Shown in pieces: positions 10,195-35,528 of a stretch of DNA of 36,469 bases. Location of the stretch: positions 1 to 36,469 of IMG/VR virus record IMGVR_UViG_3300031521_000199; one strand, 5' to 3'. A model generated the notes under the pieces. That model saw nothing but the letters and a program-made list of their open reading frames with translations, was not told the DNA's origin and made no database searches. Made by a program: the position numbers and the translations under genes. Source of the DNA: a virus. Numbering within the stretch: the first letter of the stretch is position 1; each line of letters begins with the position of its first letter.

Positions 10195-10692
10195 TTAAGA
10201 TTTTAGGAGTCCCCATTTTTGTAGGTGTTCTTCTGTTATGATAATAAATTCCATCCCTCGTTTCTTTGCATAATCAACTGATGCTGACCATTTAAGTTTG
10301 TTTTTTATATGGGTGCGAACAGCATATTCATAGCTTTCAAGTGCTTTTGCTGTTTCATTTTTAGGTTTATCGGGTGGATATAATTCTTTTTTAGGTTTAA
10401 TTTCAACTATAACCCTACTCATTAAATTTTCATCGTTTGTTTTTATTTCGTAAAAAAAATCGGGGTAATACCTATGTAACCCACCACGCAGGTCTGTATA
10501 TGATATAATTGGTTGTTCACATGCCCATCTCATAACTTTTTCATTATTGTCTAAATATTGACAAAATGCATATTCCCAACTTGAACGAAATACAATATTA
10601 TCTGGATCTCCTATATATTTTCCCTTATTTATTAAATTATATTTTCCTTGGCGGTATTTACCATTACCTATTGTTGATTTGTTACTGCTCAT
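10195..10692 (-). CDS. gp4: Head completion nuclease, T4 gp4-like
   Basis: Head completion protein with a PD-(D/E)xK nuclease fold, acting on packaged heads before tail joining. At 165 residues it aligns along its length with T4 gp4 (150): KYIGDPDNIVFRSSWEY, then Trp and Glu before IISY, RYYPDFF, VIVEIKPKKELYPP, KLKWSASVDYAKKRGMEF and IITEEHL. Likely catalytic residues are Glu40, Asp78, Glu97 and Lys99. The start overlaps the stop of the upstream receiver-domain gene by 4 bases (ATGA arrangement), so translation is probably coupled, and the unknown 244-residue gene follows after 9 bases. Confidence 0.92.
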   Translation of the reverse strand: MSSNKSTIGNGKYRQGKYNLINKGKYIGDPDNIVFRSSWEYAFCQYLDNNEKVMRWACEQPIISYTDLRGGLHRYYPDFFYEIKTNDENLMSRVIVEIKPKKELYPPDKPKNETAKALESYEYAVRTHIKNKLKWSASVDYAKKRGMEFIIITEEHLQKWGLLKS

Positions 10693-11219
10693 ATTTTATT
10701 GCTTAAATAAATTATAATACTTACACCTATTACCCAAACTAATATGTTTAGAATAAGATAAGAATATTTTTTATTTTTTGATTTTTTTTCTGAACCTCTA
10801 ATAATTTTTATTTTTTGTAAAGTGTCATTTAAATTAAAAATAGTCATTTTATTTTTAACTACATATTCGTATGCACCGTTTTTAATAATATTAGCTGCTA
10901 CATTTATATCTTCTTGTCCTGAAATAACTAAAATATATATATCGGGATTATTTTTATTAATTAGCTTCATAACTTCATCACCATTCAATCCATCTACCAT
11001 CAAATAATCTAAAATTACACAATCAGGTTTTTCATTTTCAATTTCTAATAAACATTCTTCACCAGATGTAAAAATCTTAATATCATTAAATCCATATTTA
11101 GAGATACTAATTTTTACCAAATTTAAATAATATTCTTCATCATCCATAATATAAATTTTTATATCATCTAATTCAGTTTTATTTTTTTTAAATTTTTTAA
11201 ATATATCAGTTATTAACAT
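10689..11219 (-). CDS. Response-regulator receiver (REC) protein with C-terminal membrane anchor
   Basis: A CheY-like receiver domain with no DNA-binding output. Residues 19-135 hold the full phosphorylation set: acidic pair Asp26/Asp27 in IYIMDDEEYY, phosphoacceptor Asp71 in CVILDYLMVDG, Ser100 in ILVISGQED, and Lys122 in EYVVKNK. The GLNGDEVMKLI and IKNGAYEYV stretches are typical REC sequence. A Lys/Ser-rich hinge (142-152) leads to one hydrophobic helix (about 153-172) ending in SNKI, so the protein would be tail-anchored with REC in the cytoplasm. It could accept phosphate from a host histidine kinase or sequester a host partner at the membrane (inference). It overlaps the gp4-like gene by 4 bases and follows the late sigma gene. 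T4 has no such gene. Confidence 0.85.
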   Translation of the reverse strand: MLITDIFKKFKKNKTELDDIKIYIMDDEEYYLNLVKISISKYGFNDIKIFTSGEECLLEIENEKPDCVILDYLMVDGLNGDEVMKLINKNNPDIYILVISGQEDINVAANIIKNGAYEYVVKNKMTIFNLNDTLQKIKIIRGSEKKSKNKKYSYLILNILVWVIGVSIIIYLSNKI

Positions 11220-11234
11220 ACATTCTTTTTCTTT

Positions 11235-11240
11235 TATATA
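11235..11240 (-). promoter_or_regulatory. Putative late promoter of the receiver-gp4 operon
   Basis: Minus strand CTTTTTAATATATAAAAG in the 65-base gap between the sigma gene and the receiver gene, about 16 bases before the receiver ATG. Motif recurrence is the only support. Confidence 0.35.
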
Positions 11241-11284
11241 TTAAAAAGTAAATGATTGAATTGTTATAATTCAATCAAATAATT

Positions 11285-11692
11285 TTAGATGTTGTGTAAT
11301 CCATTTCCATCATTAGCTCTATCTATACTAATCATAATAATTTTATCATCGTTGTAGTTTTTCTTGTTGTTGATAATATTTATACCATCTGCTAAACCAC
11401 GTTTAAATATTTCAGTGAAATATGGAAATGCTGTATCAAATTTTTTGGGATTAAAGTTTTTCCAATTTTGAAACATGTGTAACAATCCTTGTTGAATACA
11501 ATCATTTCTATCATCACTATTATTATAATTTCTTTCTTTCTTTCTAATTGTATTGTTTGCAATTAAAATTAGCATGTCTTGTGCTGGTCTTGTTAACTTT
11601 CCCATCCCCTTACTTAAAGTAAGCTGATAATATAATTCTCTATCTTCTAAATATTTTGCCATAATTTTATTTAATTTTTTTTGGTAATTCAA
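11285..11692 (-). CDS. gp55: Late-transcription sigma factor, T4 gp55-like
   Basis: A short sigma factor that would redirect host RNA polymerase to late promoters. The core reads DCIQQGLLHMFQNWKNFNPKKFDTAF then PYFTEIFKRGLADGI, the sigma region 2 pattern of gp55-type proteins (Asp-x-x-Gln-x-Gly, a helix ending in Asn-Phe-Asp/Asn, then Tyr-Phe/Ile-Thr and Lys-Arg). An Asn/Lys-rich tail follows. The 135 residues are somewhat shorter than T4 gp55 (185). The frame opens with TTG at 11692; an ATG at 11662 (MAKYLEDRE) gives 125 residues. The upstream YQKKLNKI looks like coding sequence and similar residues open other gp55 proteins, so the start is unsettled. The 168-base gap upstream contains a terminator and a rightward host-type promoter. 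Confidence 0.75.
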   Translation of the reverse strand: MNYQKKLNKIMAKYLEDRELYYQLTLSKGMGKLTRPAQDMLILIANNTIRKKERNYNNSDDRNDCIQQGLLHMFQNWKNFNPKKFDTAFPYFTEIFKRGLADGINIINNKKNYNDDKIIMISIDRANDGNGLHNI

Positions 11693-11711
11693 AAAATTTG
11701 TAGTACCTTTG
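11681..11711 (+). promoter_or_regulatory. Bacteroidetes-type promoter facing right, no gene downstream
   Basis: Plus strand TTG (11681-11683), a 20-base spacer, TACCTTTG (11704-11711). The -7 octamer is identical to that of the leftward promoter at 6618-6625. No ORF of useful length follows before the terminator at 11814-11846, so a short untranslated RNA of about 130 bases is the simplest product if the promoter is real. Confidence 0.4.
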
Positions 11712-11813
11712 TAACTTGGGATAATATACTCTATTTTTTATTTTTTAATAAGAATAATTTCCCAATATATATTGTATATCAAATTTTATTAAAAGTTTAT
11801 AATAAATACAAAT

Positions 11814-11846
11814 AAAAAAAGGGAACTATTAATAATTCCCTTTTTT
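11814..11846. terminator. Bidirectional terminator before the sigma gene
   Basis: AAAAAAAGGGAA and TTCCCTTTTTT pair around a 10-base loop, with A and T runs on each side. It ends the leftward coiled-coil gene transcript and could also end a rightward RNA from the promoter at 11681-11711. Confidence 0.75.
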
Positions 11847-11861
11847 ATAAATATATTTTAA

Positions 11862-17545: not shown

Positions 17546-19303
17546 TTAGAAAATTATAATTGCATTTGCATTATCGTAACCAGTTTGTATTAAAACATCT
17601 AAAATAACTAAATCGGTTAAAGCAGGTAAAGTTATACCAACTAATGTTGTTTCATTATAAGTAATATCATTTATTGAAACTGAAATACCCGAACAGTTAA
17701 TTGTTAATAACACTCTTGATATTGTTTTAGTAGTAAACCATTGAAATCTTTGTGGATTAGGACTATTATTTGCACCTGATTTACTTAAAGATAAACTTTG
17801 TGGGTAAAATTCAGGTAATCCATCAATAGAATTTGCTTTTATTTTTTTATTTAATGTTGGTTTAATATGTGTTTCATCGGGTGCTGTTATATCATCAAAC
17901 ACATAAGATTCATCATTATTATAAGCTGTTACAGCACCAACTGTTCCACTAAAATCATTACCAATTAAATCATTATTTAAATAATGTGTTACTGCTAAAT
18001 TTTGTTTCATCCATATTTGAGTACCAATAGTAACCGTATCATATATATTACCATCAATATCAACTACATTTTGTACACCAATATTGTCATCTTTTATTAA
18101 ACGAATACTCAAACCATAATCTGCACCTAAACCAGCAAATTGAATAAATTCGCTATTATTATAAACATTTACTACATAATAATCAAGCCCACTATTAAAG
18201 GTTGGTGTTAAATATGATGCAAATGTATTAATACCATCAAAATTACCTGATGGATATTTTGTACCTGAAGCTAACATACTAAAGTTAAATTCATCCGTAG
18301 CACCTGTATTTGGTTCTAACCAATGTTTATAACCAAACTCTTTTAATTTACCACCTGATACACTTTCACCACCACAGAAATCAGATAATATTTGCCATTC
18401 TATTAAACTTGGTACATGCCATCCGATTGGTGCAATACCTCTTGGGTCAATTGCTGCATAATGATTATATAATCTACCATTTGAAAGTTCTTTACCTATA
18501 ACAGTAGTTGCTTCTTCCCATTCACTAATTGATAACCCATCAATAATATTTGCATTAATTCTTTTATTTAAACTTGGTTTAACGTAGGTTGGATCAGCAA
18601 TTTTTATAATATTATAAACATATGATTCATCATTATTATAAGCACATACTGCCCCAACAGTACCCGAAAAATCATTACCTATTAAATCACCATTTCTATA
18701 ATGTGTAACTGCTGCATTTTCTTGTGACCATATTTGTGTACCAATAGTTATTGCATGATATAAATTTCCATCAATATCAATTAAATCACCTTCATTTATA
18801 TCATTATCCTTAATAAATCTATAATTCCACCCTGACTGATTATCAGCAGCAGGGTTAATAGTGACTTTAGAAAAAGTATTATAAAGTCCATAAGCGTTAT
18901 TTGATGGATATGACACAAATGGTGCAAATACAAAATCTGTTGTATTATTAATAAGTACAAATTCTTGTAATTTACCTGGTACACCAGACCACGCAGCAGA
19001 ACCACCACCAACAGCTTTAAAATTATAATCATCAGTACCTGTATTTGGTGCTGTCCAATGTTCAGTACCAGTTTCTTTCAATTTAGCACCTGCTACATTC
19101 ATACCACCGCAGAATGCTATCAATACATCCCAATCATATTGAGTTGGTATATGCCACCCTAAAGGTGCCATGTTTCTTGGATCGGTTGCTGCATAATAAT
19201 TATACAATCTACCATATTTAATAGTTTTTGTATCGGATGTTATATTTTCCCAAATTGAATTATTTTTAACCCATTCTTCACTTGCTATCTGTATTGTTGA
19301 CAT
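17546..19303 (-). CDS. Tail fibre/adhesin with two FISUMP domains
   Basis: A 585-residue protein, probably receptor-binding. After a short N-terminal IQIASEEWVKNN, which resembles the start of the 486-residue fibre, it has two FISUMP-type domains (family TIGR02145). The first opens with GRLYNYYAATDPRNMAPLGW (about 30-230), the second with GRLYNHYAAIDPRGIAPIGW (about 277-470). Each ends with IGTQIW, then THY.N.DLIGNDFSGTVGAV, YNNDESYV and a connector of the form IKPxLNKxIxAxxIDGL. The last 95 residues form a separate beta-rich domain. FISUMP folds are thought to be related to C-type lectins. The usual host of the family is Bacteroidota or Fibrobacteres, supporting the inferred host. Confidence 0.8.
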   Translation of the reverse strand: MSTIQIASEEWVKNNSIWENITSDTKTIKYGRLYNYYAATDPRNMAPLGWHIPTQYDWDVLIAFCGGMNVAGAKLKETGTEHWTAPNTGTDDYNFKAVGGGSAAWSGVPGKLQEFVLINNTTDFVFAPFVSYPSNNAYGLYNTFSKVTINPAADNQSGWNYRFIKDNDINEGDLIDIDGNLYHAITIGTQIWSQENAAVTHYRNGDLIGNDFSGTVGAVCAYNNDESYVYNIIKIADPTYVKPSLNKRINANIIDGLSISEWEEATTVIGKELSNGRLYNHYAAIDPRGIAPIGWHVPSLIEWQILSDFCGGESVSGGKLKEFGYKHWLEPNTGATDEFNFSMLASGTKYPSGNFDGINTFASYLTPTFNSGLDYYVVNVYNNSEFIQFAGLGADYGLSIRLIKDDNIGVQNVVDIDGNIYDTVTIGTQIWMKQNLAVTHYLNNDLIGNDFSGTVGAVTAYNNDESYVFDDITAPDETHIKPTLNKKIKANSIDGLPEFYPQSLSLSKSGANNSPNPQRFQWFTTKTISRVLLTINCSGISVSINDITYNETTLVGITLPALTDLVILDVLIQTGYDNANAIIIF

Positions 19304-19324
19304 TATATTTTATTATTTTTTTTA

Positions 19325-20785
19325 TTATGCAATTGCATCTTCGATTGTCATTTTATTGTATATTAATTTCTTTTCGTTTAATGAATTTATAAATATTTCT
19401 TTTGTATAAGTGTTATAAACATACGTTGAATAAGTAAAATCAAATGAATTAAAATTTTCACAAACAGTATTCATTTGAAAAGAACTTCCAATACTAATAT
19501 ACATAAAATCATTTCCAATGTTATTATACATAAAATCATTTCCAACAGTATTATGCATAAACCCAGTTCCAATATTATTATTCATAAATCCAGTTCCAAT
19601 AGTATTATATTCAACAGTAGAACCAATATTATTTTTGGACATATTTTCACAGATGTTATTGTTAAAATCATTTCCAATAACATTATAAATGAAAGAACTT
19701 CCTAATATATTGTAATTACAATTATTTCCTAATATATTTTTAATAAAAGCATTTCCTATTGTATTAATTTGAAAACCTGTTCCAATAGTGTTATAACTAA
19801 AATCATTTCCTATTATATTAACAAAAAATTCACTTTCAATATTATTATAACTAAAACCACTTCCAACCACATTCTCATATGAATTAATACCAATAACATT
19901 ATTTTTAAACGAACTTTCTATTAAGTTATTATAAAATATACCTCTAATTGTGTTATTTTGAAAATTATCAGCTATCGTATTATGGTCAAAATAACTTCCT
20001 ATTTTATTATTATAAATATTACTTCCTAAAAATACAGAATTATTATTGTTTATAATATTGTTTGTTGTTTGTTCCAATGTATTATTAAATATTGATGACG
20101 AATAGTTAAACACATAATAATCCATAAATTCAGTTGAACATGGTATAATTAAATTTGAAATAATCCAATTATCTGATGTTGGACTTGCATAGCTTAAATT
20201 TTGAAATTCAAGTAATTTATATGTGTGTGTATAATCTGATGATGGATTAATACCAATTATATTATTTTTTAAACATATATAAATATTATAACCATCTAAC
20301 ATAACATCATTCTTGTTATATGTAATATCAGTATTCCAAACATTAGATACGTATAGTTGCCATCTTCTGAACTTAACATTTCTAAAATCGAATGGAATAT
20401 CGTTATTTTGTAAAGTGTCAATTCTTCTATAAATATAACCTTTAGTACTACCAAAAATCATATTAAAATCATTATTAAAATCATAATAAATTATATCTTT
20501 AGGGTATAAACTTGAATAAGCAAGCGGTGATAATGTATTAGTTCCACTTGCTGTTACTAATAATGGTTCAATATTCCCTGTATTAATATCACTATTAATA
20601 GTGCTTGGAATAATATGAACTGTTTGATAATCAGTTATAAGATACTTTTGACCAATAGTTAATACATTTGTATTAATTAAAATTGTTAAATCTTGATAAG
20701 TAACTTCATTGATGGTGGAACCTCCACCACCAAGACCTAAATTATTAACCCATTCTTGTGTTGCTAATTGTATATTTATTGCCAT
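19325..20785 (-). CDS. Tail fibre with 9-residue beta-solenoid repeats
   Basis: A 486-residue protein that seems to be the shortest form of the fibre C-terminal module shared with the 1760- and 1480-residue proteins. Residues about 30-240 contain YLITDYQTVHIIP, NIEPLLV, PKDIIYYD, GYIYRRIDTLQNNDIPFDFR and NVKFRRWQ, all nearly identical in the other two. Residues about 249-440 are some twenty nonapeptides of the form NxIGxxFxx, predicted to coil as a beta-solenoid. The C-terminus YVYNTYTKEIFIN then MTIEDAIA is shared too. The shared module is probably a fibre tip or attachment unit. An N-terminal QLATQEWV matches the start of the neighbouring FISUMP fibre. Confidence 0.75.
   Translation of the reverse strand: MAINIQLATQEWVNNLGLGGGGSTINEVTYQDLTILINTNVLTIGQKYLITDYQTVHIIPSTINSDINTGNIEPLLVTASGTNTLSPLAYSSLYPKDIIYYDFNNDFNMIFGSTKGYIYRRIDTLQNNDIPFDFRNVKFRRWQLYVSNVWNTDITYNKNDVMLDGYNIYICLKNNIIGINPSSDYTHTYKLLEFQNLSYASPTSDNWIISNLIIPCSTEFMDYYVFNYSSSIFNNTLEQTTNNIINNNNSVFLGSNIYNNKIGSYFDHNTIADNFQNNTIRGIFYNNLIESSFKNNVIGINSYENVVGSGFSYNNIESEFFVNIIGNDFSYNTIGTGFQINTIGNAFIKNILGNNCNYNILGSSFIYNVIGNDFNNNICENMSKNNIGSTVEYNTIGTGFMNNNIGTGFMHNTVGNDFMYNNIGNDFMYISIGSSFQMNTVCENFNSFDFTYSTYVYNTYTKEIFINSLNEKKLIYNKMTIEDAIA
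19470..20040 (-). repeat. 27-base repeats coding the nonapeptide solenoid (486-residue fibre)
   Basis: About twenty 27-base units encode NxIGxxFxx. On the plus strand the unit looks like CCAATAnTATTATnnATAAA and related forms. The open frames seen on the plus strand here are by-products of this repetition. Confidence 0.75.
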
Positions 20786-20790
20786 TATAT

Positions 20791-21120
20791 TTAGAAATTA
20801 ATTTTATTTATTACACCGTTTAGTGAATAATTTATAAACCCTGATACTACATCACCTTCTATTGAAAATGATGCTGCTATAAATTTATATACATCTTCTG
20901 GTTTTTCTAATACAGGTTTCTTTGAATTATATGTTTCAATTGCTTTATCAACATCAACTTTATTAGCAGTGTTCTCAGTTCTTATTAAATCTGAAATTAC
21001 TTTTTTCTGTGCTGTATCTTCTGATTTATTGCTATTTAAAATTGTTTTCTGTTCTTCTGTTGGATATATTCTATCTTTTTTCATCCATTTTCCTTCACTA
21101 AGTGATATTAAATTTTCCAT
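20791..21120 (-). CDS. Small protein of the fibre locus, unknown function
   Basis: A 109-residue protein, not recognised. The N-terminal 75 residues are charged and helical (DTAQKKVISDLIRTENTANK), and the last 30 are hydrophobic and beta-like (IEGDVVSGFINYSLNGVINK). It has no signal peptide or clear membrane helix. It lies 5 bases upstream of the 486-residue fibre gene and after the GT25-like gene, with AT-rich leader and a TATATA-type motif near 21141-21156. It could be a fibre chaperone or adaptor (inference). Confidence 0.55.
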   Translation of the reverse strand: MENLISLSEGKWMKKDRIYPTEEQKTILNSNKSEDTAQKKVISDLIRTENTANKVDVDKAIETYNSKKPVLEKPEDVYKFIAASFSIEGDVVSGFINYSLNGVINKINF

Positions 21121-21160
21121 TTTTTTTATATTTTTTTTTTATAATATATTATATATTAAT

Positions 21161-21799
21161 TTACCATTGGTGATCTGATGTATTATTTAACAACTGATCA
21201 AAAATACCATCTGAATACATATATTTTTTATCTGATTTTATTTTATATAAGCAATAATCATTTCTTAAACAATTATTTTTAGCTAACTTAACATAATCAG
21301 TAAACATTGATTTTGATAAAGCATAGCTATGTGCAAACATTTTACCTATTATTTTTTTAACCCCTTTTACTTTATCATCTCTATATAAATCTTTCATTTC
21401 ATTATTTTGTTTATTTGCACCAATTATATTATCAAAATAAAAAATATCCCATTTATTGTTTTTTAGAAAATCAAAGCATGTATTTAAATGATAATCTAAA
21501 TTATTTTCAATTTCAGTATTTTTTTGGTTGAAACAAATATCATCTTCAAATATACATATTTTATCATAATTATTTTTTATTGCATCTTCTATACAACTAA
21601 TATGAGCTGACTTACATGATTCACACGAAACAGGTAAATTATACTGCGAAAATTGATATATGATAGGTATGATTTGCTTATATTTAGTTATATTTAATAT
21701 ACTAAACATTTTCATTACATTATCATACCTATCAACTCTATTTGGTAAATTAATAAAATAAACCATATCAAAATAATCAAAATAATTACGCATTAGCAT
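21161..21799 (-). CDS. Glycosyltransferase, GT25-like
   Basis: A 212-residue protein resembling LPS-biosynthesis (GT25-type) glycosyltransferases. Visible motifs are VYFINLPNRVDRYDN at residues 13-27 (the GT25 hallmark IxLxxRxDR), CKSAHISCIEDAIKNN (61-76) and ICIFEDDICF with Glu85-Asp86-Asp87 as the acidic sugar-nucleotide motif. HSYALSKSMF follows near the C-terminal third. It overlaps the end of the 1760-residue fibre gene by 14 bases, so it is co-translated with it. Glycosylation of the fibre is the simplest reading; alteration of the host surface glycan is an alternative. Confidence 0.75.
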   Translation of the reverse strand: MLMRNYFDYFDMVYFINLPNRVDRYDNVMKMFSILNITKYKQIIPIIYQFSQYNLPVSCESCKSAHISCIEDAIKNNYDKICIFEDDICFNQKNTEIENNLDYHLNTCFDFLKNNKWDIFYFDNIIGANKQNNEMKDLYRDDKVKGVKKIIGKMFAHSYALSKSMFTDYVKLAKNNCLRNDYCLYKIKSDKKYMYSDGIFDQLLNNTSDHQW

Positions 21800-24700
21800 C
21801 TACAATTGTCATTTTATCATATATCAATCTTTGAGTATAATCAGAATTAACAAATAATTCTTTAGTATATTGATTATATACATGTGTTGCTGATGTAAAA
21901 TCAATACCAAGTGTCATAATATTAAAATTATCACAAACATTATTCATTGTAAAATGACTTCCAATAGTATTATAATAAAACTGACTTCCAATAGTATTAT
22001 AATTAAACTGACCTCCAATAGTATTATAATAAAACTGACTTCCAATAGTATTAGAATTAAAATCAATACCTATAATATTAGAATAAAAATCACTACCTAT
22101 AATATTAGAATGAGAATTACTACCTATAATATTAGAATGAAAACTACTTCTAATAATATTATCTTGAAAATCACCTTCTATAATATTAAGTCGAAAATAA
22201 TTTCCTATAATATTATAATAAGAATTACTACCTATACTATTAGAATTAGAATTACTACCTATAATATTTATACTAAAGTAACTTTCAATAGTGTTAGCCT
22301 GAAAATATGTTCCAATACTATTATTATTAAAATAATTACCTATTGAATTATCTTGAAAACATGTTCCAATACTATTATACTTAAAATTTCCCCCTATTAT
22401 ATTATCAGTAAAATAACTTCCTATTGTATTATCAAAAAAATTTCCTCCTATTATATTATTATAAATATTAGAACCGAATATTACAGAATTATTATTTTTT
22501 ATAATATCACCACTGATGTATAATGAATTTATTTTATTATTATATATTGAATTTTTATAACTTTCCAAATCACCCCATATATTATAATCAGTATAATTAG
22601 TAGAACAAGATATAATAGTATCATCATTAATTTTCCAATTTTCTGAATTTACACTTACATAGTTTAAATTAGACCATTCAAATAACTTCCAATTACTACC
22701 ATTATATATCCATGAATTGTTGTTATCTTCTGATGGATTTACTGATGTTATATTATCATTTATACATATATAAATATCATTTGTACCTGAATATAAAACT
22801 ACCTCATTTATATTATATTCGACTTCTGAATCCCATATATTGGTTACATCAATTTGCCATCTCCTAAATTTAACGTTTCTAAAATCAAAAGGTATATCAT
22901 TATTTTGAAATGTATCTATTCTTCTATAAATATATCCTTTGGTACAACCTGATACAACTTGTTGATTATTTTCTATATTATAATAAATTATGTCTTGTGG
23001 GTAAGTTAATGAATATGCAATTGGACTCAATAAGTTAATATCAATAGCTAATACTTCTAATGGTTCAATTATACCTATATTAGTATCATTAGTATTTGGT
23101 ATTTTATGTACTGTTTGATAATCACTTATTATATAGTTAACACCTGATAATAAATTAGAATTTAATTTTAAATTTAATAATTCTGAATATGTAGTAGTTA
23201 TTGAATTATTAACTTTTTGTACATTTTTAATGTATTTATAATCTAATAGTTCATTATCAATAGGTCTAATACCTGCATCAGTAACACCTAACACTCTTAC
23301 ATATGAATTATTATTATCATAAGCAGAATAATTATCATTATTAATAGTATAGATTCCTATTACACCTGCACCAACGCAAACTAAAGAATCATTATTAACA
23401 CATGTAGCATTATAATAGTGGTTAATATTTGATATAGGTATCCAAGTAATACCATCAGATGAAGAAAACATCATATTTCCTGGACCAGCGCCTGTTGTTG
23501 TTAATAAAAATTTACCGTTAAGATAATTAAGACCAGCCCAATTGTATCCAAGAATAGAATTATTTGGATAATATGTAAATGATTCACCACCGTTAATAGA
23601 TACATTCATACTTGGTCCACCGTTATTCATTATGATCACAATATTATTACCTTCTGCTATTAAATAACCACCAACTTGAATACTAATTACAGTATTCCAA
23701 TTAATACCGTCTGATGAATTCATATAGCAACCACCACCCGATGCATGAAATTTACCCTCATTATAAATTACTGATGACCATGAATTGTTATCACCTATAT
23801 TTACTAAATCCCAAATGAATCCATCAGTAGATTTCATAATTAAACCACCAGTAGGTCCACCCGAAGATACAGCTAAATATAAACCATTTCCATATGTTAC
23901 ACCGTTCCAAGAATATCCTGAATAATTATTTGAAATATTTAAAGCACCCAACCCAGATGTCCAAATCATACCACCATCAATAGATTGAATAACTAAACCA
24001 TTATTACCTACAAAAATCACTGTATTATTACCGTAGCACCCACTATAAATTGTTTCACTACCTAAAGAATTTCTTGTTTTTGTAAACGAAGAACCAAGAT
24101 TAATAGAAGTATATATATTTCCTGTACCATCACTGATTATAATTGTATTATCAAATGATACAATATCACTAATTGAACTTTGTTGTGTAAACGTAAATTC
24201 ATTTGGTTGTAGTTCTTTATCCGCACCAATTAAATCACCATTGTTATAATGTGATGTCGCTAAATTTTCAATTAACCATATCTGATTTCCTAATTTTATT
24301 TCGTGATACACATTACCATCATAATCTAATATTTCACTTGTTGCTAAATCATTATTATCTTTAATACATCTAACAGAAGCTAATAAATCTGTTAATTTTG
24401 TTTCGGTATCCATTTGTAGTGGATCAAAAATAGATATACTATTACTATTATCAGTAATTGAAAATGCACTATTTTGTGTTAATAAAACTGATAATGAATT
24501 AAGTCCAGTGAATGAATTAATTAATTTAATACCACCTGGTAATGCATTAAACCCTGATGGTGTAATATTTTCTAATTGAATATCCCAATGAGTAGTACCA
24601 CTTTCTTTTAATACACCACCTGCTATATCATTTCCACCCACATTCTGTATCAATATATTAAATTCATCTGTTGTTGGTATGTGATATCCAATAGGTGAAA

Positions 24701-27068
24701 TTAGTCTGATATCATTAATAGCTTTTTGATTATATAAATAACCATATTTTATTCCAGCTTCAACAGAATTATCATATTTTTCCCAAAGAGATTCACCATT
24801 CGTTAATCCATCAATAAAATCAGCGTGAATTCTTTTATCATTTTTAGGTTTAATATACACTCTTGGTATACTAAAATATCTACATGGTAAAACTTGACTT
24901 GATGGATTTTCAAATGTTATTGGCAACGGTGGTGTTTTCATTAAACCCGTCCAACCAAAATCACTTCCGGTCCAACTCACCCCAATTTGATAATCAGGAT
25001 CTGATTCAGATGAAGAATAAAAGTTTCCGTACACCTCTGAAATTTTCAACCCACTTTCCAAGTCTTGTAGTTCAGTTGCAGATGGGATAAACCAATCTGA
25101 ATATCCACCGTTTGTTAATGAAACTACATAATTTGCAGCAGTTGCATCACTACCTATTGCACTTATAACAGATAATGTATTACTATATCCATCACCAATA
25201 TTCATACTTGTTACACCATTAGTTATATTTGGTGAAAAATTCATTGGACTTGCAGATGGTGTTCCAATTATAATACCTTTCCAAAGATTTTTATCATAAC
25301 CTGGATCATGTGGTGAAAATACATAACCAACTTTTCCACCTTCTAATGTAGTACCAAGAACTGGTGGTACATCTACCCATTTACTTTGTTCAATTAAATC
25401 AACTATTCCTTGTACGTTAAGTCCACTATCTTTTAATAATTTACCTGAATCATCTGTAAATGTTGGAAAATTATTCATAACAGAACCAGTTGGTCCTTTA
25501 ACATTATCTTCCAAACCATCAATAATATTTGATGGTACCCTTTTTTCATTAGTTGGTATAATATGAATTTTATCTTCTATACTAACAATATTATAAACAT
25601 ATGATTCATCATTATTATAATTACCATATGCACCATCAGTTGTATTAAAAATTTGTAATATTGGATCACCATTATTATATTTTGTTGTAGCTAAATTTTC
25701 AACTAACCATGTTTGTGTGCCAATAGTTACAGATGTGTATTTATTTCCATCTATATCTGAAACAGTAGTTTCTGTATTACCATTATCTCTAATACAACGA
25801 ATAGAAGCACCCGTACTCTTTTGTGTTTGATATAAACTTATATATCCACTCCATGTACCAATATTAGCATAATAAGCATAATCATTATCAAATTGTATTG
25901 ATGTCCACAAAAATGTTGTAGAACCATATGATGAATAATTATCATAATATGTATCATGAATTCCACTTGGTAATAAATCAAACCCAAATTGATTTGTTGC
26001 AACATTATTAGGTGCTACCCAATGAGTAGTACCACTTTCTTTTAATGCACTACCTGCTACATTTACACCACCACAAAAATTAATTAATGTTGTAAATTCA
26101 TCCATTGTAGGTACATGCCATCCGATTGGTGCAATACCCCTTGTGTCAGATGCTGCATAAAAATTATATAATCTACCATTTGTTATATTTTTTGTATCCA
26201 TTGATGGTGAATTTTCCCATAATGTAGGTAAATCATCAATAATACTTGCATGAATTTTTTTATCATTTATAGGTTGAATATGTGTTAAATCTTCAACTAC
26301 TATAATATCATAAACATTTGATTCATCGTTATTATATGCAGTTACTGCACCAAGTGTTCCACTAAAATTAGAAAGAATAGGATCACCATTTTGATAATGT
26401 GTAACAGCAAGGTTTTGTTGTAACCAAACTTGATTTCCAATTGTTACTGAATGATAAGTATCACCATCAATTATTACATCACCTTCATTTATGGAATTGT
26501 CTTTTAGTAGACGAATACCTCTTCCACTTGCCATTGAGTAATTATTACTACTATTAATAGCTTGTCCAATATACATGTATATACCAAAAGCCCCACTGAC
26601 ACCGTTAGATTTATTTCCCCATATTTCTGCAAAAGTTCCCTTATAATTAAATCCACCATCATAATACCCATTTAATCTTGCATTAAACTGATAAATATCA
26701 AGTCCACCATCTATAATACTAATTAATTTAGCTGATTGGGTAGCATCATTTCCAATAAAAGTTAAAAGTATATTCCATTCTATATCAGTTGGTACATGCC
26801 ACCCAACAGGAGCTATCCCTCTCGTATCAGTTGCTGCATACCAATTATATAATCTACCGTATTTAATTTGTTTTTGTTGAATTGTTGAATTTTCCCACAT
26901 CCCATTAATTGCATTAACCCATACACCATCTGTTTTGTGTAAATATTCTTCACCTGTATCATTAAAATGTATTACTTGACCAATTGAATAACCATTATTT
27001 AGTGTATAATCACCACCATTTAATTCTGTTGTTATATCAATAAATATCTTTGGTTGAATTTTTTTCAT
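21786..27068 (-). CDS. Giant multidomain tail fibre (FISUMP, DUF1566, Asp-box, solenoid)
   Basis: A 1760-residue protein, probably a long receptor-binding fibre. Order: FISUMP 1 (about 67-250, GRLYNWYAATDTRGIAPVGW), FISUMP 2 (about 290-493), a phage linker GPTGSVMNNFPTF..DSGKLLKDSG, a DUF1566/Lcl-like domain (about 567-740, GGYSDWFIPSATELQDL), and FISUMP 3 (about 773-957, more divergent). An Asp-box-like region follows (about 973-1240, with SIDGGMIW, STDGFIWD, SSDGINWN, SINGGESF, SSDGITWI), suggesting a beta-propeller. Next come the shared fibre module with DYQTVHKIP and GYIYRRIDTFQNNDIPFDFR (about 1310-1520), about twenty nonapeptide solenoid units (about 1530-1710), and a shared end (KELFVN..MTIVDANA). 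It lies between two glycosyltransferase genes. Confidence 0.8.
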   Translation of the reverse strand: MKKIQPKIFIDITTELNGGDYTLNNGYSIGQVIHFNDTGEEYLHKTDGVWVNAINGMWENSTIQQKQIKYGRLYNWYAATDTRGIAPVGWHVPTDIEWNILLTFIGNDATQSAKLISIIDGGLDIYQFNARLNGYYDGGFNYKGTFAEIWGNKSNGVSGAFGIYMYIGQAINSSNNYSMASGRGIRLLKDNSINEGDVIIDGDTYHSVTIGNQVWLQQNLAVTHYQNGDPILSNFSGTLGAVTAYNNDESNVYDIIVVEDLTHIQPINDKKIHASIIDDLPTLWENSPSMDTKNITNGRLYNFYAASDTRGIAPIGWHVPTMDEFTTLINFCGGVNVAGSALKESGTTHWVAPNNVATNQFGFDLLPSGIHDTYYDNYSSYGSTTFLWTSIQFDNDYAYYANIGTWSGYISLYQTQKSTGASIRCIRDNGNTETTVSDIDGNKYTSVTIGTQTWLVENLATTKYNNGDPILQIFNTTDGAYGNYNNDESYVYNIVSIEDKIHIIPTNEKRVPSNIIDGLEDNVKGPTGSVMNNFPTFTDDSGKLLKDSGLNVQGIVDLIEQSKWVDVPPVLGTTLEGGKVGYVFSPHDPGYDKNLWKGIIIGTPSASPMNFSPNITNGVTSMNIGDGYSNTLSVISAIGSDATAANYVVSLTNGGYSDWFIPSATELQDLESGLKISEVYGNFYSSSESDPDYQIGVSWTGSDFGWTGLMKTPPLPITFENPSSQVLPCRYFSIPRVYIKPKNDKRIHADFIDGLTNGESLWEKYDNSVEAGIKYGYLYNQKAINDIRLISPIGYHIPTTDEFNILIQNVGGNDIAGGVLKESGTTHWDIQLENITPSGFNALPGGIKLINSFTGLNSLSVLLTQNSAFSITDNSNSISIFDPLQMDTETKLTDLLASVRCIKDNNDLATSEILDYDGNVYHEIKLGNQIWLIENLATSHYNNGDLIGADKELQPNEFTFTQQSSISDIVSFDNTIIISDGTGNIYTSINLGSSFTKTRNSLGSETIYSGCYGNNTVIFVGNNGLVIQSIDGGMIWTSGLGALNISNNYSGYSWNGVTYGNGLYLAVSSGGPTGGLIMKSTDGFIWDLVNIGDNNSWSSVIYNEGKFHASGGGCYMNSSDGINWNTVISIQVGGYLIAEGNNIVIIMNNGGPSMNVSINGGESFTYYPNNSILGYNWAGLNYLNGKFLLTTTGAGPGNMMFSSSDGITWIPISNINHYYNATCVNNDSLVCVGAGVIGIYTINNDNYSAYDNNNSYVRVLGVTDAGIRPIDNELLDYKYIKNVQKVNNSITTTYSELLNLKLNSNLLSGVNYIISDYQTVHKIPNTNDTNIGIIEPLEVLAIDINLLSPIAYSLTYPQDIIYYNIENNQQVVSGCTKGYIYRRIDTFQNNDIPFDFRNVKFRRWQIDVTNIWDSEVEYNINEVVLYSGTNDIYICINDNITSVNPSEDNNNSWIYNGSNWKLFEWSNLNYVSVNSENWKINDDTIISCSTNYTDYNIWGDLESYKNSIYNNKINSLYISGDIIKNNNSVIFGSNIYNNIIGGNFFDNTIGSYFTDNIIGGNFKYNSIGTCFQDNSIGNYFNNNSIGTYFQANTIESYFSINIIGSNSNSNSIGSNSYYNIIGNYFRLNIIEGDFQDNIIRSSFHSNIIGSNSHSNIIGSDFYSNIIGIDFNSNTIGSQFYYNTIGGQFNYNTIGSQFYYNTIGSHFTMNNVCDNFNIMTLGIDFTSATHVYNQYTKELFVNSDYTQRLIYDKMTIVDANA
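21940..22478 (-). repeat. 27-base repeats coding the nonapeptide solenoid (1760-residue fibre)
   Basis: About twenty 27-base units; those at 21955-22045 differ at only a few bases and encode NTIGSQFYY, NTIGGQFNY, NTIGSQFYY. The near-identity points to recent expansion or gene conversion. A 130-codon open frame on the opposite strand is an artefact of the periodicity. Confidence 0.8.
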
Positions 27069-27097
27069 ATTTTTCTTTTATTTTTATTTTTATTAAT

Positions 27098-27793
27098 TTA
27101 GTTTCTCCAATGTCCGAATCCAAGATGTGAAAAATATGTATCAGATTCTGTTTTAGTTAAGTATTGAATATTAGGTATTGAATTAAAATATGTACTAACT
27201 ACATCTGGTCCACTTGTATAAATAACATCATAATCATCTACTACTGTTAATCCACATCTTTCACCACATAAATTTATTATACCTTCCATGTTAACTGATT
27301 GTGGGGTTGACATAATAAAATAGTTACTAATTCTTAAAGCTGATTCAGGAACATTATTTCTTATTTTATAACTTTTAGTTTTTTCAATAAAATCTTCTGT
27401 AATAGTTTTTTCTTCAAAAAATAAATCATTATTAGCATTTTCATTATAAAAACTTATAAACGGTTTTATAACAAGAATATCATAATCAGAATAAATTCCA
27501 CCATAATATTTCAAAACAATATATCTTGCAAAATCAGATTTCTGAATATTTAATTTATATGTATTATATGTAATTAATTCTTTTTCATTCATTAATGCAA
27601 TAACTTCACTTTCAATCCACTGAACTTGTTTAAATTCTGGATTGAAAATATCAAACCTTTCAATATAACCGTTATACACATCAGGTGTAACTGCATCATA
27701 TAACAATAATCTATGAATTATTTTTGGTATTCTATTTTCTGTTTTTGAATTTTCTAATTCTAAAACAACTTCATTATCTGTTATTTTTAACAT
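27098..27793 (-). CDS. Glycosyltransferase, GT32-like (DXD sugar-binding)
   Basis: A 231-residue protein of the OCH1/capsular-type family. The opening RIPKIIHRLLLYD resembles the usual IPKIIHQ start, and the diagnostic block NIQKSDFARYIVLKYYGGIY then SDYDILVIKPF contains the DxD motif (Asp-Tyr-Asp). Late motifs NYFIMSTPQS and TSGPDVVSTYF also fit, and it ends in LGFGHWRN. No membrane helix is seen, so it is probably cytoplasmic. It is placed between the 1480- and 1760-residue fibre genes with 30-base A-rich gaps on each side. Fibre glycosylation is inferred from position. Confidence 0.82.
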   Translation of the reverse strand: MLKITDNEVVLELENSKTENRIPKIIHRLLLYDAVTPDVYNGYIERFDIFNPEFKQVQWIESEVIALMNEKELITYNTYKLNIQKSDFARYIVLKYYGGIYSDYDILVIKPFISFYNENANNDLFFEEKTITEDFIEKTKSYKIRNNVPESALRISNYFIMSTPQSVNMEGIINLCGERCGLTVVDDYDVIYTSGPDVVSTYFNSIPNIQYLTKTESDTYFSHLGFGHWRN

Positions 27794-27823
27794 ATTTTAT
27801 TATTTTTATTTTTATTTTAATAT

Positions 27824-30800
27824 TTATTGTATTGGTAAATCTATGAAAATAATGTCATCAAATTCATCAGTATATTTAAGTATTTGTTTTTGTGATGCAG
27901 TAATAAATAATTCTTTTGAATACTGATTATAAACGTAATCTGATGATGTAAAATCTAATCCACCATTACTATTAAAGTTATCAGATACATTATTCATTTG
28001 AAAACCGCTTCCAATAATATTATTATTAAAGTTATTTCTTATTGAATTATTTTGAAAATCATCACCCATATCATTTCTATCGAACATATATCCTATTGAA
28101 TTATAACCAAAGGAATTACCTGTTGAATTATTTTGAAAGTAACTATCTATTGTATTATAACTAAAATATTTTTTAATGGAATTATATTGAAAATCGCTTC
28201 CAATATTATTATCATAAAAATTACTTCCCAACGTATTAGCATCAAAATAACTTCCTATTGTATTATCAAAAAATGCAGAACCAACAGTATTAGAAGAAAA
28301 ATTACTTCCTATTGAATTATTATAAAAACCTCCTTCTATTAAATTTCCACTAAACCTATTTTTAATAGTGTTATTATAAAATTCCCTACCAATAATATTT
28401 CCACTAAACCCACCATAAATTATATTATTGTAACAAAACCCCGAAATAGTATTGTTCATAGATGATTGACCAGTAGATCCTTCATTATTTCCACCATATA
28501 TTGTATTATTATAAAAATTACCTTCAAGTATTACTGTATTAAATGAATACATATTTTCATAACTACCAACAGTATAAGAAAAAATTGTATTGTTAATAGA
28601 ATTATAATAATGATTCCAATTACCCCACATAGTATAATCTTGATAATTAGAAGTAATTGGAATTACTGCACCACCAATATTAAACGTACTATAATAATTA
28701 TAATAACTTGAATATGTTAAATTTTTAAATGGATATAATAACCAATTAGTAGAATTAGTAGGATTAGACCAATATATAGATGTAACATCATCACTATTAT
28801 TATCAGATAAACTAACATAAATATAATCATTATAAGTAACTACATCATTTATATCATAAGTTATCCCTGATTCCCAAACATTTGTTACATTTATTTCCCA
28901 TCTTCTAAATTTTGCTTGTCTAAAATCAAAACATATATCATTGTTTTGTGTTGTATCAATTCTTCTGTAAATATACCCCATTGTACAACCAGGTGCAATT
29001 GTTTGATCATTTATATGATTATAGTAAATAACGTCTTGTGGAAATAAACTTGAATATGCTTCTGGTTTTAACTTATTTCTACTAATTGAAGTTACTAATA
29101 AAGGTTCAATATCCCCTGTATTTATATCACTTGTATTTGGTATTCTATGTACTGTTTGATAATCTGTTATAAGATAATTTTGTAAAGGTTTTAACCCATT
29201 TGCAGAAATTAAATTTGTTAATTCACTATAAGTAACATTAATAACAGAAACTGTTCCACCCCCAGGATTTTCTGAAACGATTGGTAAATTTTTAATATAT
29301 TTTGCATCTACTAAATCATTATTTTTTGGTCTTAATTCATTAGTATTCGATGTTACTGATTCATTTTTAGAAGAATATACCCAATCAGAAATATTAGATT
29401 CCCAAGAATAATTGATTGATAGTATTTGTTCATTGTTAGAATCATATGTATATTCTTCTTTAGAACTATATATCCAATTAGAAGTAGTAGTATTCCAAGT
29501 ATAATAAGTGCTTAATAATTGATTATTATTAGAATCATATGTATATTCTTCTTTAGAACTATATATCCAATTAGAAGTAGTAGTATTCCATGTATAATAT
29601 GAATACAATAATTGATTGTTATTAGAATCAAAAGCAGATTCATATTTATAATACCCTATCCAATTAGATGTATTATAATTCCATGTATAATATGAATACA
29701 ATAATTGATTGTTATTAGAGTCATAAGTAGATATATATTTTTGATTACCTATCCAATTAGAAGTATTAGAATCCCAAGAATACCCAGCATCTAATATTTT
29801 ATTATTATTAGAATCATAAGCATATTCATATTTATAATATCCTATCCAATTAGAAGTAGTAGTATTCCAAGTATAATAAGTGTTTAATGTTTCATTATTG
29901 TTTGAATCATAAGCATATTCACGTTTTTGACTACCTATCCAATTAGATGTATTAGAATCCCAAAAATAACTAACATCTAATATTCTATTATTATTAGAAT
30001 CATAAGCAGATTCATATTTATTATTATAAATCCAAAGAGAATAATAATTATTCCAAGCAGAAATTATATTTAATATTTCATTGTTATTAGAATCATATTC
30101 ATATTCATATTTAATAGTATTTTCCCAATAAGTAATACCAGAAATATTAGTTCCCCAAGTATAATCTACTTCTAATATTAAATTATTATTAGTATATGTA
30201 TATTCATATTTATAATTAAATTCCCAAACAGAATTATTAGAATCCCAATAATAATCTATTTCTGATAATCTGTTATTATTAGTATCATAAGTATATTCAT
30301 ATTTACCAACAGTTATCCAATTAGATGTATCAGAATCCCAACTATATTGTACATTTAATATTTCATTATTATTAGAATCATAAGTATATTCCCTTTTACT
30401 ATCATAATTCCAATCAGATATATTAGAATCCCAATAATAATTTATTTGTAATATTATAGAATTATTAGAATCGTATTCATATTCAGTTTTTCCGTCACCG
30501 ACCCAATTAGAAGTATTATAATCCCAACTATATTCTGCTTCTAAAATTGAATTATTATTAGAATCATATATGTATTCATTTTTATAATCACCAATCCAAT
30601 CAGAAGTATTAGAATCCCAAGAATATTCTGCATATAATATTTCATTATTATTATAATCAAAAGCATATTCATTTTTTTGTTGACCTACCCAATCAGAAAT
30701 ATTAGAATCCCATGAATAACTTGCATCTAATATTTTATTATTATTAGAATCAAAAGCATATTCATATTTATTTTTACCAATCCAATCAGAAATATTAGAA

Positions 30801-32266
30801 TCCCATAAATAACTTGCAGATAATATTTTATTGTTATAAACATTTGTAGGTATACTTATATTAGATTTAAGTTTTGAATTTTCATTATTATCAGGGTTAT
30901 TATTATGGTCATAAGCATATACATATTTACGACTACCTACCCAAGATGATGTTTCAATATCCCATTCATAAGATTCATGTAATATTTCATTATTTCTATC
31001 GTCATAAGCATTTATAGATTTTTCGTAATTTATTAGCTTGTTTAGTTCATCATCCCAATTATATTTAATATCTAATATTTGATTATTATTAGAATCATAT
31101 GTGTATTCTCCCCTGTAAACTAAAGTCCATGATGAATCACCAACATTAAAATTATAATATTCTTCTAATATATCTTGGTCACTATTATTATAAGTAGTTT
31201 CTTGTTTACCATTAGGAATCCATTTTGATGAATTAGAATCCCAATCGTAATATGTGTCTGTATATTTTTTACCATTTATAACTTCTTCCCATAAAGAATC
31301 ACTATTTGTTAATCCGTCAATAATATTTGCATTTATTCTTTTATTATCTTTAGGTTGGATATGAATTGGGTCTGTTATTGTTACAATATTATAAACATTA
31401 GATTCATCATTATTATAAGCAGTTACAGCTCCAACTGTACCACTAAAATCTGAACCTATTAAATCACCGTTTTGGTAATGAGTTTCTGCTAAATTTTGTT
31501 GTAACCAAACCTGGTCACCAATTGTAACTGAATGATAAGTATCACCGTCAATTATTACGTCTCCTTCGTTTGTTGAATTATCTTTGATAAGTCGAATAGA
31601 AAATCCAAACATTTTATCATATCCATATACTAACTCTAATTTATTAGGGAATAGTCTAAATATCCCTGGATACCCATTCCCATCATTTGAAGCAGACCAT
31701 AAATAACACCCATCATTTAATTCCCCAAAAAGGTTATTGTAAAAATATCTTGCTCCACTTCCAACAGCCATAAAATTATAATCATTTGTTGGAAGTGGAT
31801 CTCCACTATAATGATTCCAATAATTTGAATCTGTTGATTTTAATTTATACTGTGCAGTATTTATACCACCACAGAAATTAATTAATGTCTGAAATTCAGT
31901 ATAACTTGGTACATGCCATCCAACAGGTGCAATACCTCTTACATCAGTTGCAGCATACCAGTTATATAATCTACCATATTTAATAGATTTTTGTTGCATT
32001 GTTGAATTTTCCCAAAAAGATTCACCACCCCCACCTGTTCCACCTTGTGAAATAGCAGTACTTAAACTGAGTTCGGTTGAAATACGTTGTGATACTTCGG
32101 TTGTTAATTTATTACTTATACTATTATCAGATGATATTCTTTGTGTTATTTCGGTTGATAATCCAGTATTTGCGGATGTTGATCTACTATCTAAATAAAT
32201 TAAATTACCATCCATTTCTTGAATAGTTAATTTACTACCTTTTTGACCTCTTGTTACTATTCCCAT
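27824..32266 (-). CDS. Giant repeat-rich tail fibre (FISUMP, 31-residue repeats, solenoid)
   Basis: A 1480-residue protein, probably a long fibre. The N-terminus MGIVTRGQKGSKLTIQEMDG then NLIYLD resembles openings of other phage fibre proteins. A helical segment of about 50 residues follows, then a glycine hinge. FISUMP (about 93-300) opens with GRLYNWYAATDVRGIAPVGW. About 340-970 is twenty repeats of a 31-residue unit (YDSNNNxIL...YSWDSNTSNWIG..KYEYA), reminiscent of YD/RHS-type surface repeats. The shared module with DYQTVHRIP and GYIYRRIDTTQNNDICFDFR (about 1035-1230), nonapeptide solenoid units (about 1236-1426) and a C-terminus YVYNQYSKELFIT complete it. It has a strong TATATA-type late promoter candidate 28 bases from the ATG. 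It is the first gene of the adhesin operon. Confidence 0.8.
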   Translation of the reverse strand: MGIVTRGQKGSKLTIQEMDGNLIYLDSRSTSANTGLSTEITQRISSDNSISNKLTTEVSQRISTELSLSTAISQGGTGGGGESFWENSTMQQKSIKYGRLYNWYAATDVRGIAPVGWHVPSYTEFQTLINFCGGINTAQYKLKSTDSNYWNHYSGDPLPTNDYNFMAVGSGARYFYNNLFGELNDGCYLWSASNDGNGYPGIFRLFPNKLELVYGYDKMFGFSIRLIKDNSTNEGDVIIDGDTYHSVTIGDQVWLQQNLAETHYQNGDLIGSDFSGTVGAVTAYNNDESNVYNIVTITDPIHIQPKDNKRINANIIDGLTNSDSLWEEVINGKKYTDTYYDWDSNSSKWIPNGKQETTYNNSDQDILEEYYNFNVGDSSWTLVYRGEYTYDSNNNQILDIKYNWDDELNKLINYEKSINAYDDRNNEILHESYEWDIETSSWVGSRKYVYAYDHNNNPDNNENSKLKSNISIPTNVYNNKILSASYLWDSNISDWIGKNKYEYAFDSNNNKILDASYSWDSNISDWVGQQKNEYAFDYNNNEILYAEYSWDSNTSDWIGDYKNEYIYDSNNNSILEAEYSWDYNTSNWVGDGKTEYEYDSNNSIILQINYYWDSNISDWNYDSKREYTYDSNNNEILNVQYSWDSDTSNWITVGKYEYTYDTNNNRLSEIDYYWDSNNSVWEFNYKYEYTYTNNNLILEVDYTWGTNISGITYWENTIKYEYEYDSNNNEILNIISAWNNYYSLWIYNNKYESAYDSNNNRILDVSYFWDSNTSNWIGSQKREYAYDSNNNETLNTYYTWNTTTSNWIGYYKYEYAYDSNNNKILDAGYSWDSNTSNWIGNQKYISTYDSNNNQLLYSYYTWNYNTSNWIGYYKYESAFDSNNNQLLYSYYTWNTTTSNWIYSSKEEYTYDSNNNQLLSTYYTWNTTTSNWIYSSKEEYTYDSNNEQILSINYSWESNISDWVYSSKNESVTSNTNELRPKNNDLVDAKYIKNLPIVSENPGGGTVSVINVTYSELTNLISANGLKPLQNYLITDYQTVHRIPNTSDINTGDIEPLLVTSISRNKLKPEAYSSLFPQDVIYYNHINDQTIAPGCTMGYIYRRIDTTQNNDICFDFRQAKFRRWEINVTNVWESGITYDINDVVTYNDYIYVSLSDNNSDDVTSIYWSNPTNSTNWLLYPFKNLTYSSYYNYYSTFNIGGAVIPITSNYQDYTMWGNWNHYYNSINNTIFSYTVGSYENMYSFNTVILEGNFYNNTIYGGNNEGSTGQSSMNNTISGFCYNNIIYGGFSGNIIGREFYNNTIKNRFSGNLIEGGFYNNSIGSNFSSNTVGSAFFDNTIGSYFDANTLGSNFYDNNIGSDFQYNSIKKYFSYNTIDSYFQNNSTGNSFGYNSIGYMFDRNDMGDDFQNNSIRNNFNNNIIGSGFQMNNVSDNFNSNGGLDFTSSDYVYNQYSKELFITASQKQILKYTDEFDDIIFIDLPIQ
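27985..28560 (-). repeat. 27-base repeats coding the nonapeptide solenoid (1480-residue fibre)
   Basis: About twenty degenerate 27-base units encode NxIGxxFxx-type nonapeptides, including NTVGSAFFD, NTIGSYFDA and NTLGSNFYD. They are more divergent than the copies in the 1760-residue gene. Confidence 0.75.
29356..31250 (-). repeat. Tandem 93-base repeats coding 31-residue YD-like units
   Basis: About twenty head-to-tail units of 93 bases. The best conserved neighbours, near 29440-29600, are nearly identical in DNA. One unit near 30840-30910 carries an insertion, and one near 30130-30200 is slightly longer. The invariant positions are Tyr-Asp-Ser-Asn-Asn-Asn, then Trp-Asp-Ser, then Trp, then a Lys/Tyr-Glu pair. 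Copy number is probably variable. Confidence 0.85.
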
Positions 32267-35516: not shown

Positions 35517-35528
35517 TTTATATATAAA
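35517..35528. promoter_or_regulatory. Shared palindromic late promoter of divergent genes
   Basis: TTTATATATAAA lies in the 48-base gap between the resolvase gene (ATG ends at 35499) and the 78-residue gene (ATG at 35548), about 18-20 bases from each start. A symmetrical element that could fire both ways is the likely reading. Confidence 0.5.

Follow-up and report, generated by a model that had tools for sequence, protein, structure and literature searches.

A tail-anchored single-domain response regulator encoded between late sigma factor-like and gp4-like genes in a viral contig

The window, that is, the whole 36,469-nucleotide stretch analyzed here (IMG/VR virus record IMGVR_UViG_3300031521_000199), encodes a single-domain response regulator that is carried by a phage and anchored by its tail, hereafter REC-TM; it is conserved in related viruses, and its function is inferred. 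In the best reading, to which we give a probability of about 0.45, it would be a late-expressed, membrane-anchored interceptor of phosphorelays, acting as a sink or competitor on a host kinase/Hpt relay. The main rival is a phosphorylation-gated switch acting on a membrane partner.

Results

Layout, Fold, and Active Site of REC-TM

A single Pfam domain was recovered above its curated cut-off (30.2 bits) in the REC-TM protein, PF00072 (E=7.1e-18, 65.2 bits), which the homologues of the protein matched with 55-70 bits. No output domain was found in the window protein, as the initial annotation had claimed. The structure prediction proposed there as a check of the receiver fold gave a confident answer: the AlphaFold2 model, built from a 4-sequence alignment, was a (beta-alpha)5 receiver with block-mean pLDDT of ~84-94 across residues 20-140 (84.7 overall), whose closest solved folds in Foldseek were the receivers of NtrX, Spo0F, PhoP, and CheY. 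The PDB sequence matches were likewise single-domain response regulators. The phosphorylation site was complete; D26/D27, D71, S100, and K122 had been correctly identified from the start, and we add Y119 as the switch tyrosine. Phosphorylation of REC-TM by a kinase or an Hpt protein is predicted from these site residues.

The tail of the protein consisted of a basic linker, a predicted transmembrane (TM) helix, and three further residues. The helix, originally placed at about 153-172, coincided with the most hydrophobic 19-residue stretch (155-173, mean Kyte-Doolittle hydropathy 2.48), which ranked first among 30 window proteins and was equaled in the tail by 75 of 20,000 shuffled versions of REC-TM. 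In the model, the last helix ran unbroken from residue 130 to residue 175. Sequence comparison and modeling together thus showed a receiver with an intact catalytic site and a predicted C-terminal membrane anchor (Table 1).

Table 1. Features of the window around the REC-TM gene.
Feature	Position	Strand	Basis
gp4-like head closure/TnsA-like nuclease-fold gene, downstream neighbor, ATGA overlap	10195..10692	minus	phrog_218 E=1.4e-43; PF08722
REC-TM gene, 176 aa, ATG start	10689..11219	minus	ORF list, PF00072, AlphaFold2 model
C-terminal TM helix, residues ~153-173	10701..10763	minus	hydropathy, conservation, continuous model helix 130-175
Receiver domain, residues ~20-138	10806..11162	minus	PF00072 residues 22-123; AlphaFold2 fold
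Phospho-acceptor Asp71 codon	11007..11009	minus	REC family alignments; unchanged in all 4 phage and 5 bacterial REC-TM proteins compared
TTAATATATAAAA, candidate late promoter before REC-TM	11232..11244	minus	shared with L003 and L004; motif class enriched before genes
AT-rich inverted repeat GATTGAATT-GTTAT-AATTCAATC, sigma/REC-TM intergenic	11254..11276		sequence reading
Late sigma factor-like gene (gp55-like), upstream neighbor	11285..11662	minus	phrog_234 late sigma transcription factor, E=1.3e-6

Comparison With Known Receivers

REC-TM shares with single-domain response regulators of the CheY, Spo0F, and DivK type (PF00072) the single receiver, the full phosphorylation site, and the lack of an output domain, but differs from the CheY/Spo0F type by the TM helix fused to alpha5 and by the location of its gene beside late phage genes. 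Because of this fused helix, it is not a pure single-domain response regulator, made of a receiver and nothing else. Other phage-borne receivers, such as those of Alteromonas phage vB_AmeM_PT11-V22 and PHROG 731, also correspond to phage-encoded REC domains, the likeness being at the level of this domain. The cREC domain (PF20274) of jumbo phages has a receiver-like fold and was reported never to occur in histidine kinase systems (PMC7824862). We rejected membership of REC-TM in this family, as the window protein had no match at E<=0.01 and that of L004 scored 21.5 against a cut-off of 27.

Genomic Setting and Host

The window carries a T4-type portal, a major capsid protein, a prohead protease, and gp4, and the virus is T4-like. 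The announced location of REC-TM beside the late sigma and gp4 genes was recovered with phrog_234 and phrog_218 neighbors, and the absence of a T4 counterpart of REC-TM held. The sigma gene starts with an ATG near position 11662. The host is probably Bacteroidota-like, as suggested by the presence of FISUMP-domain fibers and by the search for Shine-Dalgarno-like 4-mers, none of which preceded any of 27 genes. The fiber-like proteins with FISUMP domains are multiple (positions 17546-32266), some of them with repeated IG-(S/N)-F-type motifs, and two glycosyltransferase genes (21161-21799 and 27098-27793) are interleaved with them.

No HATPase_c or Hpt match was obtained on the three REC-TM contigs searched, which are all fragments (36, 63, and 22 kb), so that the host presumably supplies the phosphoryl donor. 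Searches for defense-system membership gave weak matches only. One REC-TM phage record (G400) also encodes a protein with an adenylate/guanylate cyclase catalytic domain (L164:14712-15368; PF00211, E=1.7e-18) and an MGS-like domain protein (L164:18755-19201; PF02142, E=6.5e-13).

Candidate Late Promoters

The element TTAATATATAAAA was located 20-25 nt before the REC-TM start in the window, in L003, and in L004, and was slightly altered in L153. Within the 60 nt upstream of genes, the AATATATAA/TATATATAA class was present in 7 of 24 regions of the window (1.3 expected from dinucleotide shuffles) and in 22 of 63 regions of the relatives (3.6 expected), the copies lying mostly 22-38 nt ahead of the gene start. 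We propose the ATATATAA-type element, found ~20-50 nt before many genes, as a putative late promoter in this phage clade; its copies in the window are at 1750, 6572, 9440, 11241, 15304, 21156, 32302, and 35525 on the minus strand and at 35520 and 35787 on the plus strand. By analogy with the T4 late promoter, the upstream element suggests that REC-TM is probably expressed late. Bacteroidota-type promoters (TTTG-N-TAnnTTTG) were not in excess (3 seen vs. 2.3 expected). The non-coding region ahead of the sigma gene (11680-11850) contains a GGGAA...TTCCC-T6 hairpin at ~11817-11846 (fold z-score -1.5), and its TTTG-N20-TACCTTTG promoter-like match was no better than chance.

REC-TM in Related Viruses

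Searches of viral contigs with gp4, portal, and REC alignments as queries recovered three further REC-TM genes next to gp4, in L003, L004, and L153 (63-kb record G400), in line with the search suggested by the initial annotation. The order sigma, REC-TM, gp4 was the same in the window, L004, and L153; of the sigma gene, the L003 contig covers only the end, followed by REC-TM and gp4. REC-TM was thus retained in 4/4 contigs of the clade that cover this slot, with the gene order kept. The 4-base ATGA overlap with gp4, claimed as a coupling, was confirmed in the window but differed in the homologues, being reduced to 1 base in L003 and replaced by short gaps in L004 and L153; we thus rejected it as a conserved coupling device, since it varies among homologues.

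Identity to the window REC-TM was 52% for L003, 39% for L004, and 46% for L153, below the values of the relatives for gp4 (66-69%) and sigma (75-77%). Despite this divergence, D27, D71, S100, Y119, and K122 were invariant in the four phage proteins (p ~9e-4 for all five sites, by random draw of invariant columns among the four), in agreement with the expectation for Asp71 and Lys122 in true homologues; position 26 was a glutamate in L004. The C-terminal TM segment was present in 4/4 (hydropathy 2.48-3.14), all homologues having a hydrophobic C-terminus. The strongest conservation in the phage receivers corresponded to alpha1 (Y30, Y31, L34) and to the beta5-alpha5 loop (K122, N123, M125, F128, N129).

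In more remote relatives, which share this sigma and gp4, the junction of the two genes was either empty or occupied by unrelated inserts; since these relatives lack the gene or differ at this junction, we consider the slot as accessory. The region between sigma and gp4 was variable in L010, L008, L014, L026, L027, and L153, with endonuclease-like repeat proteins and other unrelated inserts. Among GenBank phages (50,697 records), no full-length relative covering 80% of the query was found, the matches being to the receiver domain only.

REC-TM Proteins in Bacteroidota

The top two matches among bacterial genomes were both from Bacteroidota. In a sample of 395 genomes of this phylum, we recovered five copies of a stand-alone receiver with a C-terminal TM segment, in four genomes. 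These proteins (L031, L058, L084, L150, L151) have the layout of the phage REC-TM, namely a REC domain, a short linker, a C-terminal TM segment, and a short tail, and they exhibit similar SGQ and GA-DY-(V/I)K motifs, but their beta3-alpha3 loop is longer. In the model of the G022 protein, alpha5 and the TM segment formed a continuous helix, as in the phage protein.

Kinase or Hpt genes were neighbors of the REC-TM gene at three of the five bacterial loci, in contrast to the three phage REC-TM contigs searched, all fragments, on which none was found. The gene adjoins an Hpt gene and a hybrid kinase at one G001 locus, is directly followed by a HisKA-HATPase-REC-Hpt kinase in G169, and lies upstream of two hybrid kinases, one with an Hpt domain, in G213; no kinase or Hpt was found near the second G001 copy or the G022 copy. 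Bacterial REC-TM regions were observed at L150:3367-6897, L151:660-6612, L114:4981-7800, L115:5143-5640, and L113:6075-6590, several of them with Hpt or TPR hybrid kinases.

In receiver trees (~118 columns), the phage and bacterial REC-TM formed two separate clades, a single clade having AU p-values of 0.34 and 0.21. A nesting of the phage proteins inside the bacterial ones was neither supported nor rejected, and an early tree joined long branches. From sequence comparison, we claim homology for the REC domain only; a common ancestry of the fused architecture is neither supported nor rejected. Literature searches found neither a name nor a description for the bacterial REC-TM family. They also found no paper on membrane-bound response regulators or phage-encoded two-component systems, which does not prove their absence.

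A Kinase, Receiver, and Coiled-Coil Arrangement in Large Viral Contigs

A weak match (L167) led to a second arrangement, in viral contigs of up to 322 kb whose phage status is that of the IMG/VR classification. It combines a receiver of 143-144 aa, whose active-site residues are conserved, with a coiled-coil protein of ~226 aa that is encoded after it and carries TM segments at its C-terminus. This coiled-coil protein is encoded in 257 candidate IMG/VR stretches. The receiver gene was upstream of the coiled-coil gene in 78/81 loci, with a -4 or -1 overlap in 75 of these 78, and a kinase-like gene directly preceded the receiver in 53 of the 62 loci with enough upstream sequence (PAS and HATPase domains in the examples scanned). 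An endolysin-like gene was present within ~5 kb in 41/81 coiled-coil loci. A gp4 relative was found in 1 of 11 contigs with this arrangement, and neither the L167 receiver nor the coiled-coil protein had a GenBank phage match (tblastn, E<=0.01). Examples of the operon are L167:2950-4956, L188:2972-5684, L193:2942-5675, L196:3441-6316, and L169-L248.

This operon of a PAS-HATPase kinase, a receiver, and a coiled-coil/TM protein resembles a two-component system that phages would encode themselves and that would end at the membrane. It suggests that a receiver-to-membrane wiring recurs in viruses, the likeness of the operon receivers to REC-TM being that of the receiver fold only. In a 344-kb relative with a T4-type portal (G003, L116:4074-6592), a HisKA-HATPase kinase, a CheY-like receiver, a TM protein (phrog_18926), and a second receiver are encoded consecutively. 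We find it rather unlikely that large phages of Bacteroidota-like hosts carry their own membrane-ending phosphorelay modules (REC-TM or the kinase, receiver, and coiled-coil/TM operon), reading a phosphorylation signal at the membrane to time a late event, e.g., lysis or the exclusion of other phages.

Discussion

Receivers dock on kinases and Hpt proteins via their alpha1 and beta5-alpha5 loop faces. The conserved segments of the phage REC-TM are these docking regions and the donor is presumably a host protein, which leads us to favor a membrane-tethered phospho-acceptor. The gene of such a protein would be transcribed late, from a promoter of its own and with the adjacent phage sigma factor. 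The protein would face the cytoplasm at the inner membrane, its basic linker being on the inner side and only 0-8 residues following the helix. It would dock on a hybrid kinase or an Hpt protein of the host, whose phosphoryl group it would accept at D71. Being tethered and having no output domain, it would most likely drain or occupy the host phosphorelay during the late phase, the direction of the effect being conjectural, and the phosphorylated form may also bind a membrane partner. The invariant active site, the same architecture beside kinases and Hpt genes in Bacteroidota, the conserved upstream element, and the precedents of PIT4 and of stand-alone receivers all support interception. PIT4 of Pseudomonas phage LSL4 is also a phage protein; it binds host histidine kinases and acts on host two-component systems (PMC10714779), but it is an early gene product, and the abstract of that paper does not present it as a receiver domain. 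Several observations count against interception. A phage-encoded kinase elsewhere in the genome is possible, because the REC-TM contigs are all fragments and other large viral contigs encode kinase-REC pairs; no kinase lies near the bacterial REC-TM of G022 or near one of the two G001 copies; the conserved S100 and Y119 would also be needed by a phospho-switch with a target; and homology of the phage and bacterial REC-TM is claimed for the REC domain only.

In the main rival, which we consider somewhat unlikely, phosphorylation would alter the alpha4-beta5-alpha5 face, continuous with the TM helix, and thereby open, close, or recruit a membrane partner, timing lysis or blocking superinfection. 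The invariance of S100 and Y119, the apparently late promoter, and the prediction of alpha5 and the TM segment as one helix in one phage and one bacterial REC-TM all fit such a switch, as does the pairing of REC with a coiled-coil/C-terminal-TM protein in other large viral contigs, often with an endolysin-like gene nearby. However, this gene is near the pair in only half of the loci, in the REC-TM phages we saw no lysis gene next to REC-TM and no conserved adjacent membrane partner, and their conserved segments fit kinase docking better than alpha4. The sink or competitor and the phospho-gated switch thus remain as candidate roles, whereas a pure decoy that is never phosphorylated fits poorly with an acid pair and a Lys that are both intact. 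For the same reason, we regard as quite improbable a non-phosphorylated inhibitor of a host kinase, bound to its transmitter domain. FixT and Osp, stand-alone receivers inhibiting kinases, offer a precedent (PMC9430884), and REC-TM resembles them as a stand-alone receiver without output domain; its predicted membrane location, near kinases, would also suit such a role. Yet neither FixT nor Osp is phosphorylated, and the acid pair is missing from both and the Lys from Osp (PMC9430884), whereas all these residues are intact in the four phages; we thus rejected membership of REC-TM in the FixT/Osp type. The variable slot, with no gene or other genes (endonuclease-like repeat proteins, other inserts) in distant relatives, and the faster divergence of REC-TM than of gp4 or sigma would also fit a captured host gene or passenger (moron) with no role in infection, but the gene has been kept in four contigs of the clade with its catalytic residues, TM segment, and upstream element despite large divergence, which makes this reading very improbable.

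Our analyses thus suggest that four related viruses tap or block a host signaling chain late in infection. It was already known that phages bind host kinases; a tail-anchored, catalytically intact late receiver would, if the proposal is true, give them a direct handle on host membrane phosphorelays, and D71 offers a single-residue test of the use of phosphorylation by the phage. The phage REC-TM also points to a bacterial REC-TM family still without a published description that we could find. If the link with the membrane and lysis control holds, infection timing would be coupled to two-component signaling.
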